Source: Cyanobium sp. NIES-981
GTDB taxonomy: Bacteria; Cyanobacteriota; Cyanobacteriia; PCC-6307; Cyanobiaceae
Reading direction: 5' to 3'
DNA length: 64,000 nucleotides
NCBI GenBank assembly: GCA_945896675.1
Contig: CAMDEM010000002.1
Location: forward strand, 1 to 64,000
Shown: in pieces, positions 37,650 through 63,703 of the stretch
Layout of the letters: every line of letters starts with the position of its first letter
How positions within the stretch are numbered: position 1 is the first letter of the stretch
Program-made: the position numbers and the translations under genes
The notes under the pieces: generated by a model
Databases searched by the model: none
Told to the model about the DNA's origin: nothing
What the model saw: the letters and a program-made list of their open reading frames with translations, nothing else

Positions 37650-37807
37650 TCCCAGCTCTTGCGCTGGGGGGATCTTGCCCAGCAAACCAGTTCTTCTCCG
37701 GTCATGGTTGCTACGAAAGCGTGAGCTGGTGGCCTTGATGGTTGGTTGCGATTGGCGATCAATTGCGCCTTTGTCTCTTATTCTTAAGCTTGATTTATTT
37801 GGATTTC

Positions 37808-38308
37808 ATGCGGGTTCCTTTCATCCGGACGTCCTTTGCTGCAGCCCTGGCCTTGACTGCTACGGCGACGGCTGCAGTGACGGTTGGAGCCCAGTCAGCA
37901 GGGGCCCAAACCTGTCAGTTTCTGGCCCCTGTGGGTGGGGATAGCACTACCAATATCGTCACCAAAACCATCAGCGCCGGCGCCGTATTGCCCTTTAGCC
38001 ATCCGAACTGGAACACCGATTTCTTTGTGACGGCGCCCTACAGCACCTACAAGTTTTTCTTCACCGCCAATTCGTCCGTGAGTGCCACCTACCCGGTGGA
38101 GGGCTTCCTGAAGTTCACCGATGGCACCGCCTTTCAGGTCATCAACGAACCCTCCTTTGCACCGCCCACGGGCACGGGCCGCCAATGGGGCCCTTTCCCC
38201 ACATACCCCGGCAAGGTGGTTTCCCAGGTGAATTTCAGGATTGGAGCTTCAGCTGATCAAGCAGCCACCGGTTTCACCTACCGGATCTCCGTGCAGGGCT
38301 GCAACTAA
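37808..38308 (+). CDS. Secreted protein of unknown function
   Basis: The 166-residue product begins with a clear signal peptide (MRVPFIRTSFAAALALTATATA, cleavage probably after SAGAQ or a nearby AQA-like site). The mature part is Thr/Ser/aromatic-rich, beta-like, with one Cys near its start and one as the next-to-last residue, which could form a disulfide. I do not recognise a family. The 120 bp upstream is AT-rich near its end (TTATTCTTAAGCTTGATTTATT), consistent with a promoter. Its stop overlaps the convergent pabC stop by 4 bp. Confidence 0.7.
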   Translation: MRVPFIRTSFAAALALTATATAAVTVGAQSAGAQTCQFLAPVGGDSTTNIVTKTISAGAVLPFSHPNWNTDFFVTAPYSTYKFFFTANSSVSATYPVEGFLKFTDGTAFQVINEPSFAPPTGTGRQWGPFPTYPGKVVSQVNFRIGASADQAATGFTYRISVQGCN

Positions 38309-39165: not shown

Positions 39166-40550
39166 GCCAAGGCCTCCAGCAGGGGTTGGAGTTTCCAGCC
39201 CATCTCCTCGGCTTCGGCGGCTGGATCGGAGTCGGTCACGATGCCGCAGCCGGCGTGCACCCGCAGCCGTTGGTCCTTGATCAGCACCGAGCGGATCAGG
39301 ATGTTGCTGTCGAAGCTCCCATCGGGGCCCAGCCAAAACAGGGAGCCGCAATAGGGACCGCGGGCCACAGGCTCCAGCTCCGCCAGGCGCTGGCAGGCGC
39401 GAATCTTGGGCGCCCCCGTGATCGAGCCCCCCGGCCAGGTGGCGCGCAGCAGGTCCACCACCCCTTGGCCTGGTTGCAGCATCCCTTCCACCACCGAGGT
39501 GAGGTGATGCACGTGCCGGTAGCTCTCCAACCCCACCAACTGGGGCACCTGAATCGATCCGCTCTGGCAGACCCGGCCCAGGTCATTGCGCAGCAGATCC
39601 ACGATCATCACGTTCTCAGCCCGGTCTTTGGGGCTGGTGATCAGTTGGGCGGCTTCCGCCGCATCGGCTTGCGGGTCCTGCTGGCGGGGCCGGGTGCCCT
39701 TGATCGGCCGCGTTTCCACCAGGCCCTTGCCATCCACCTTCAGGAACCGTTCTGGGGAGCTGGACAGCACGGCCTCCCCCTTGGCAGGGCCTGCGGCGAT
39801 GGCTAGGCCGCCAAAGGGGGCCGGGCAGCTGTGGCGCAGGCGCAGGTAGAGGTCCAGGGCATCGGGGGCCGAGGGCGTGTTGGCTTCGCAGCAGGCGGTG
39901 AGGTTGGCCTGGAAAATATCGCCTTGGTCGATCCAATGGCGGATCTGGGCAACCTGCTCGGCAAACCGGCTGGAGCTCGTGTGCCAGGTCCAGGCGTCGA
40001 GGGGAATGGCCCCATCTCTAGGAGTTGCCGTACCAGGGGTTGCAGTTCCAGGCCCAGCCTGGGTTGCTGCCATGGCTGTGATCAAGCCAGCCATCTCCTC
40101 CAACCGCTGGGGTGTGGAGCCTTCCAGCCAAAGGGTTTGGCTCTGGTGATCCATCACCACGATCGGGTCGAACCGGGCCGCCCAAAGCACGGCCATGTCG
40201 CTGTCGGCCCAATGGTGGCCAGGCTCCACCCAGGCCCCTGCCTCGTAGGCCAACCAGCCCATCCATTGCCCGCCGCTGGCCTCGATGGCGGCCAGCGCCG
40301 CAAACGGATCGCTCGCTCCTGGGGTGCCGGGTAGGCCGCGGCACACCTGTTGCTCCAGGGGATGGACGCCGATCCGGCTCCACCGGCCCAGGTCGGAGCC
40401 ATCGCCATCGAGCCATACCAGCCCCTCGGCGCCGAAGTGGTGGGCCAGCTGCCGCACCAGATGGGCCGGTTCACACCAGGGCAGGGGGCGCCGGATGGGG
40501 CTTGGCTTGGTCAATGGCTTTGCAGGGTCAATGGCTGGACAGTGCCCCAC
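39162..40550 (-). CDS. pabB: Aminodeoxychorismate synthase component I
   Basis: The 462-residue chorismate-using enzyme shows the conserved C-terminal blocks [41 protein letters not shown] and [13 protein letters not shown]. With pabC coupled downstream, it is assigned to para-aminobenzoate rather than anthranilate synthesis; the glutaminase subunit is not in the window. The GTG start at 40550 overlaps queC by 23 bp; a later start is possible since the first 25 residues are poorly conserved. Confidence 0.88.
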
Positions 40551-41271
40551 TGGCGAGTTCGGGGTGGCCCGCCTCGATTAGCGCCGCATCGCGGATCCGG
40601 CAGCTGTCGCAGATCCCGCAGGCCTGGTCGCCGCCGCTGTAGCAACTCCAGGTGGCGTCGATGGGCACGTTTAAGCGCAGGGCCTCTCTCACGATCTCGG
40701 TTTTGCTCCAAAGCACCAGGGGTGCCCACAGCTGGGCCCCGTGGCCCTCGCGGCCGCTTTTGCTGGCCAGATCGGCCAGGGCCTGGAAGGCGCTGAGGTA
40801 GTCGGGGCGGCAGTCGGGGTAACCGGAATAGTCGATGGCATTCACGCCGAGCACCAGCTTGGTGGCCCCCCGGGCCTCCGCCAGGCTCAGGCCTAGGGCG
40901 ATGAACACCGTGTTGCGCCCGGGCACATAGGTGCTGGGGATCACGCCGCTTTGGACACCATCGGTGGGCACGGCGATGGCCTGGTCGGTGAGGGAAGAGC
41001 CGCCCCAGCTGGCCAGGTTGACGGCGATGGTGTGGTGCTCGGCCAGCTGCAGGGCTTGGGCAACGGCCTTGGCTGCGACCAGTTCCCGCCGGTGCCGCTG
41101 GCCGTAATCAAAGGAGAGGCCAATCACGGCATAACCCGCCTCCATCGCCAGAGCTGCGGCCGTGGCGGAGTCCAGTCCGCCGGACAACAGGGCAATCGCA
41201 GTGGGTTGGGGTGTGGGCAAGGGACTGGCAGTTGCCGGATCAATGGCAAAAGGCTGCCAGATCACCGTCAA
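40528..41271 (-). CDS. queC: 7-cyano-7-deazaguanine synthase QueC
   Basis: The 247-residue enzyme converts 7-carboxy-7-deazaguanine to preQ0 using ATP and ammonia, in queuosine synthesis. The PP-loop [16 protein letters not shown] is near residue 27, and the zinc-binding cysteines lie in [15 protein letters not shown] near 210. ORF start is a TTG at 41271; the GTG two codons on is an alternative. It diverges from the ecotin-like gene with 26 bp between. queE lies on the far side of that gene on the same strand. Confidence 0.95.
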
Positions 41272-41297: not shown

Positions 41298-41852
41298 GTG
41301 AGTGTGCGTCTGAGGGTCTTCCCTGGTCTTGCCGTTGCCGCCCTGGCTGCTCCCCTGGCTGCCGTCTTGGGTGCCGTCGTGGCTGCGCCTGGGGCCCGGG
41401 CCATTCCGCGCCTGGATCTCAGCCCCTTCCCCCCAGCCGCTCCTGGGGAAACCCGTTGGGTGATTCAGCTGCCAGGCCTGCTTCCTTCCTCCAGCGATCA
41501 GGCCATCTCCGGGAACCCCCGCGATTGGCGGGTGCAGGTGATCGTGGGCCAGCTGGCCAAGGTGGACTGCAACATGCATAGCTTTTCTGCCCAACTCCGC
41601 ATCGAGAAGGGCAAGGCAGATCCGGTTGTTCCCTATCTGCGGGTGAGCGATGTGGGTCCGATGGCCTCCACCCGCATGGCTTGTCCCGCCGGTGAGCCCC
41701 TGCAAGAGAAGTTTGTGGCGATGGCGGGCCGGCCGTTTGTGATGCCTTACAACGTCAGTCGGCCGATCGTGGTTTACGCCCCGAAGCCCCTTGTGGTGCG
41801 CTGGCGGCTCTGGAAGGCCGAGACGCAGGAGCGGCCCGCGGGCAGCTTTTAA
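41298..41852 (+). CDS. eco: Ecotin-family periplasmic serine protease inhibitor
   Basis: From the GTG at 41298 the product has 184 residues: a signal peptide (about 1-35, ending APGARA) and an ecotin-like domain. Matches to ecotin are [29 protein letters not shown] (Cys 91), STRMACPAG (Cys 129) and [19 protein letters not shown]. Ecotin inhibits chymotrypsin-fold serine proteases through its 80s loop; the two cysteines form its disulfide. Escherichia coli ecotin has Met at the P1 position (STMMACP), while here the aligned residue is Arg 126, which would favour trypsin-like targets. It sits between queC and queE on the opposite strand. Confidence 0.88.

Positions 41853-41876: not shown

Positions 41877-44247
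<2,371 letters not shown>

Positions 44248-59642: not shown

Positions 59643-63703
<4,061 letters not shown>

Follow-up and report, generated by a model that had tools for sequence, protein, structure and literature searches.

The gene at positions 41298 to 41852 of the window, i.e., of the whole 64,000-nucleotide stretch of picocyanobacterial DNA analysed here, encodes an ordinary member of the ecotin family (PF03974, MEROPS I11). It carries arginine at the P1 position of its reactive loop and probably functions as a periplasmic, trypsin-directed inhibitor of exogenous proteases, namely those of grazers or predators. The source organism is a freshwater picocyanobacterium, and its assembly is 1.97 Mb in size and 88.5% complete. 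Among named relatives, a Synechococcaceae MAG (97% protein identity) and an uncultured cyanobacterium MAG (91%) come closest.

Identification of the ecotin gene

41298..41852, + strand: ecotin gene (eco), GTG start, 184 aa, identified by Pfam, PDB sequence and fold matches
41298..41402, + strand: probable signal peptide, ...GARA^IPRLDL, cleavage after GARA, judged by eye
41403..41849, + strand: mature ecotin domain, AlphaFold2 mean pLDDT 82.3, Foldseek match to 7pqn
41568..41570, + strand: cysteine equivalent to E. coli Cys50, invariant in 115/115
41682..41684, + strand: cysteine equivalent to E. coli Cys87, invariant in 116/116

The protein matches Pfam PF03974 with an E-value of 3.6e-29 and 101.7 bits, passing the cut-off of 22.2, and phmmer matched it to the ecotin sequences of the PDB at 7.7e-18. 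Its score of 89.6 bits against NCBIfam PRK03719, the E. coli-type equivalog, lies under the cut-off of 162, which is expected because the window ecotin is a distant member. The AlphaFold2 model was built on nine aligned sequences, those of the window ecotin and of relatives; its best Foldseek match is the ecotin 7pqn (E 8.9e-12, TM 0.80/0.85), all 29 of the 29 PDB structures matched at E <0.001 are ecotins, and no non-ecotin fold was found in the PDB at E <0.1. The C-terminal tail, which is the predicted dimer arm region, is of low confidence in this model. Trp130 is kept in 116/116 family ecotins and WKAE nearly so, and the window ecotin may form a homodimer via the C-terminal arm.

The preliminary description had recognized an ecotin with both cysteines and with the MACP and IVVY-P-V-WKAE blocks, and Pfam, PDB and fold comparisons now agree with it: STRMACP, PIVVYAP, WKAE and the two cysteines are all present. 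The Cys50 and Cys87 pair is invariant across the family and is predicted to brace the reactive loop, and the conserved scaffold residues of the family are Cys50, Asn51, Thr83, Cys87, Pro114, Val116, Pro120 and Trp130. Ala precedes the predicted cleavage point in 113/115 relatives, and export of the window ecotin to the periplasm is predicted from its N-terminal sequence.

Other ecotin-like genes were also observed in the family. Some Cyanobiaceae carry a further, strongly diverged ecotin-like family whose P1 is Leu or Val (Pfam 4e-10 to 6e-4), at loci L122 (G222), L123 (G259), L117 (G244), L118 (G009) and L119 (G092); in G222 and G259, the divergent copy and an ordinary Arg-P1 ecotin lie on the same multi-megabase contig. 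Two assemblies each contain two ordinary ecotins that differ at P1, Leu and Arg in G230 (L007/L124) and Lys and Arg in G002 (L044/L045); both assemblies are incomplete and G230 is 6% contaminated, so these pairs may reflect a mixture.

Arginine at P1

41667..41687, + strand: reactive loop S-T-R-M-A-C-P (P3 to P4'), from alignments to E. coli ecotin
41673..41675, + strand: P1 arginine codon CGC, equivalent to E. coli Met84, from phmmer and profile alignments

Both phmmer and profile alignments set the arginine of STRMACP opposite Met84 of E. coli ecotin, placing it inside the reactive loop, at P1, as had been predicted. The loop had also been described as STRMACP in place of STMMACP, a contrast that stands against Enterobacterales only, as Met occupies P1 in 0/116 ecotins of its own family. 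In this census, which covers 116 ecotins out of about 115 Cyanobiaceae genomes, P1 is Arg in 84, Lys in 14, Leu in 17, Ala in 1 and Met in 0, and Arg is found in 13/13 same-genus ecotins. A basic P1 is the family norm (98/116), and the rarity previously implied for Arg does not hold. The remainder of the loop is near-frozen among Cyanobiaceae ecotins (P2 Thr 115/116, P2' Ala 112/116, Cys87 116/116). Outside cyanobacteria, a small sample of about ten records together with the literature gave Met in Enterobacterales, Leu in Aeromonas and Vibrio and Arg in Rhizobium, while PMC9904509 describes a P1 Arg for Rhizobium and Tatumella, a Lys for Burkholderia glumae and either Met or Leu for animal pathogens. 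That Arg at P1 is rare or unique is ruled out by the family census, the Rhizobium records and that paper. No earlier account of the lineage pattern of P1 in picocyanobacterial ecotins was found in the literature searched, and the lineage-wide switching among Arg, Lys and Leu appears to be unreported there.

Secondary protease-binding site

41610..41633, + strand: 60s loop, GKADPVVP replacing E. coli EGWGYDY (W-G-Y-D), secondary site lost
41745..41762, + strand: 100s loop, PYNVSR replacing E. coli R108-YNSKL, hot-spot Arg108 changed to Pro

By alignment, the E. coli-type secondary site, composed of the 60s and 100s loops, is absent from the window ecotin, and Pro stands at the Arg108 position both here and in 109/116 family members. 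The importance of Arg108 and Asn110 is taken from a MASP study in which these two site 2 residues were mutated (PMC9136129). The ecotin of Campylobacter rectus, with Leu at P1, likewise does not conserve the secondary site (PMC7773321); as the site varies in accepted ecotins, its loss does not exclude membership, and the secondary site characterizes E. coli-type ecotin without defining the family.

In E. coli ecotin, the effect of P1 is partly buffered by the second site (Seong 1994, as cited in PMC7773321). The earlier claim that P1 dictates inhibitory specificity is therefore overstated for E. coli ecotin, where site 2 compensates, and should come closer to the truth for the window ecotin. 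Since site 2 is degenerate here, P1 should matter more than in E. coli ecotin, and the P1 loop should carry more of the binding.

Distribution, genomic context and history

40528..41271, - strand: queC, divergent neighbour, PF06508 at 1.6e-69, supported by synteny, marking the conserved locus
41877..42575, - strand: queE (radical SAM), convergent neighbour, PF04055 at 1.4e-9, named from its position and homologues, supported by synteny

Ecotin was found in 119/400 genomes in a family-wide search of the group labelled Cyanobiaceae here, whose named members are Cyanobium and Synechococcus. In a phylum-wide draw of 386 cyanobacterial genomes, 23 bear ecotin, all of them Cyanobiaceae, and none was found in the draw outside this family. 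In most of the family, ecotin is flanked by divergent queC on one side and convergent queE on the other. Among 49 ecotin loci with flanks (L002-L049 and L051), queC adjoins ecotin at 45, in many genera, and the neighbourhood consists of housekeeping genes (queC, queE, pyrG and pabB). In ecotin-less genomes of several genera, queC and queE are often directly adjacent. This placement across genera, together with the losses, points to an old family locus and not to a recent acquisition; recent gene transfer was ruled out on the same grounds. Moreover, dN/dS ranges from 0.11 to 0.25 between three near relatives and is 0.11 and 0.20 for the window ecotin against two near relatives, values low enough to indicate that the protein is maintained under purifying selection. 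Judged from these comparisons, the ecotin of Cyanobiaceae is vertically inherited with losses.

Several other observations concern the locus and the window. At L143:1462-1764 (G029), a decayed ecotin with an in-frame stop is still located beside queC, i.e., a loss in progress. In the relative G240, the aligned queC ORF (L043:3060-3800) has a stop as its fifth codon, so the window queC start (41271) may have been set upstream of the true one, which would make the gap between queC and eco wider than 26 bp. Elsewhere in the window, positions 37742-38308 (+), near pabC, encode a secreted-looking protein of 160-190 aa with no Pfam family, and a 93-base tRNA-Thr called by ARAGORN at 60226-60318 (+) is unsupported by Rfam and probably spurious.

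Evolution of P1

When the P1 column is left out of tree building, cyanobacterial ecotins show no fewer than 13 changes at P1 and no fewer than 10 between its basic and non-basic states. Arg/Leu pairs separated by very short branches differ by one base (CGG/CTG), for example among close relatives in genus g6. Other loop positions change less (P3 6, P2 1, P1' 9, P2' 4), and the median number of changes per ecotin column is 13, the same as for P1. As the P1 rate equals the protein median, there is no evidence of accelerated evolution or of a clear arms-race signature, and hypervariability of P1 was rejected as proof of positive selection. The W67-G68-Y69 motif is kept in 12/97 basic-P1 and 9/18 non-basic-P1 cyanobacterial ecotins (Fisher p 7e-4); with only 1-2 informative independent contrasts, the link between a basic P1 and motif loss is not established.

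Proposed function and potential targets

Arg at P1 prefers an S1 pocket with Asp189, as in trypsin-like enzymes. The window ecotin would be a substrate-like (canonical) inhibitor in the periplasm, whose loop, held by the predicted Cys50-Cys87 disulfide, would enter the active site of a chymotrypsin-fold protease. Its P1 Arg would sit in the Asp189-bearing pocket, so that trypsin-like enzymes would be preferred, and with a degenerate secondary site, binding would lean on the P1 loop more than it does in the E. coli protein. The proteases met are most likely foreign, such as digestive or predatory serine proteases in a grazer vacuole, in a gut or around the cell. We infer export, dimer formation, trypsin inhibition, a foreign target and a benefit for the window ecotin. 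The earlier proposal that Arg at P1 favours trypsin-like enzymes is borne out by the natural Arg-P1 ecotin of Tatumella citrea, which, according to PMC9904509, keeps trypsin inhibition and is about 1000-fold weaker on neutrophil elastase than E. coli ecotin.

It is unlikely that the window ecotin is a generalist, as in E. coli, with a broad target range and a P1 Arg that matters little. P1 substitutions in E. coli ecotin often leave trypsin inhibition intact because site 2 compensates (PMC7773321 and PMC9136129), but the compensating W67-G68-Y69 and Arg108 are missing from the window ecotin, and the weak action of the T. citrea inhibitor on elastase also argues against such breadth.

The preliminary description had offered control of a periplasmic protease of the cell itself as one role; that ecotin regulates the cell's serine proteases, in the periplasm or the thylakoid lumen, is very improbable. 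The predicted periplasmic location would bring ecotin into the compartment of the Deg/HtrA proteases, and the two S1 matches in the window genome are both of this type. With the catalytic serine in TDAAINPGNSGGP as the point from which residues are counted backwards, position 189 is however Ala in these enzymes, which fits P1 Arg poorly and makes control of own proteases unlikely. Neither an S1 protease with Asp189 among the S1 enzymes found nor any S8 protease was found in the window genome; as this assembly is 88.5% complete, it could lack a trypsin gene that the cell has. An own trypsin as the target was nevertheless rejected, as no Asp189 S1 enzyme was seen. In 36 relatives, every PF00089 match is a weak one, the best having E 7.5e-21. 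Most of these relatives have about three S1 matches with or without ecotin, with no visible dependence, and the same-genus G183, in which ecotin was undetected, still has 3. In addition, E. coli ecotin does not act on the proteases of E. coli itself, according to PMC9904509.

A role in defence against grazers or predators would fit the window ecotin, and an inhibitor directed at foreign trypsins remains our preferred reading. Free-living picocyanobacteria also meet proteases of predatory bacteria, competitors, phages and parasites. Such attack, in place of a grazer digestive enzyme, would select the same trypsin-type P1, yet we regard it as a quite unlikely target: the locus offers no genomic link, its neighbours being housekeeping genes, and cyanobacterial-type relatives were not found in a scan of viral contigs, by which phage carriage was rejected as well. 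The tool results favour neither the bacterial or phage target nor the grazer target over the other. In protist grazers, digestion may depend largely on lysosomal proteases that are not serine proteases; against such grazers ecotin would help little, which counts against the grazer reading. No paper linking ecotin to grazing turned up in a full-text literature search, a search for ecotin with Synechococcus gave nothing relevant, and no study of inhibition, localisation or grazing for a cyanobacterial ecotin was found in the literature searched.

The single window gene is by itself an ordinary finding. Nearly all discussion of ecotin treats it as a means by which animal-associated Proteobacteria and trypanosomatids defend themselves, and cyanobacteria go unmentioned in the available text of a 2023 review (PMC9904509). 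Picocyanobacteria are among the most abundant of photosynthetic cells, and their ecotin is syntenic, family-wide and trypsin-type or sometimes chymotrypsin-type at P1, with Met never occurring there; this pattern offers a testable route to the question of whether ecotin serves outside animals as a defence against digestion by predators.

Comparison with known systems

E. coli ecotin (MEROPS I11; PDB 1ecy, 7pqn) shares with the window ecotin the fold, the disulfide pair, the P3-P4' framework, WKAE and, as predicted from the N-terminus, periplasmic export; at about 32% identity, it differs in having Met at P1 and in the WGYD and Arg108 that are absent here. The ecotins of Rhizobium sp. T136 and T1473 have the same STRMACP loop but keep W67-G68-Y69 and Arg108 and belong to a different phylum, as does the Arg-P1 ecotin of T. 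citrea (PMC9904509), which retains trypsin inhibition with weak action on elastase. C. rectus ecotin (PMC7773321) resembles the window ecotin in its non-Met P1 and unconserved secondary site, and differs in that P1 is Leu. The engineered ecotin M84R/W67A/G68A/Y69A/D70A (1ezs), which is among the closest PDB sequences, combines Arg at P1 with a disabled 60s loop, although it is a laboratory construct that keeps Arg108. According to its PDB title, 1ezs carries M84R with residues 67-70 set to Ala and was crystallised with rat trypsin, showing that loss of the 60s loop does not keep an Arg-P1 ecotin from binding trypsin.

The cyanopeptolins of bloom-forming cyanobacteria are a functional analogue only, being non-ribosomal cyclic depsipeptides of unrelated origin. 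Arg or Lys at their position 2 gives trypsin inhibition, while Tyr, Phe or Leu gives chymotrypsin inhibition (PMC6070996), and the gut proteases of Daphnia are mainly trypsins and chymotrypsins (PMC2873468). These two position-2 classes match the two classes found at P1 of cyanobacterial ecotins. Tentatively, picocyanobacterial ecotins might be the ribosomal counterpart of cyanopeptolins, in which P1 would flip between Arg/Lys and Leu by single-base changes, track the digestive proteases of grazers and discard the secondary site where P1 is basic. For the role of picocyanobacterial ecotins, the cyanopeptolin parallel is suggestive.
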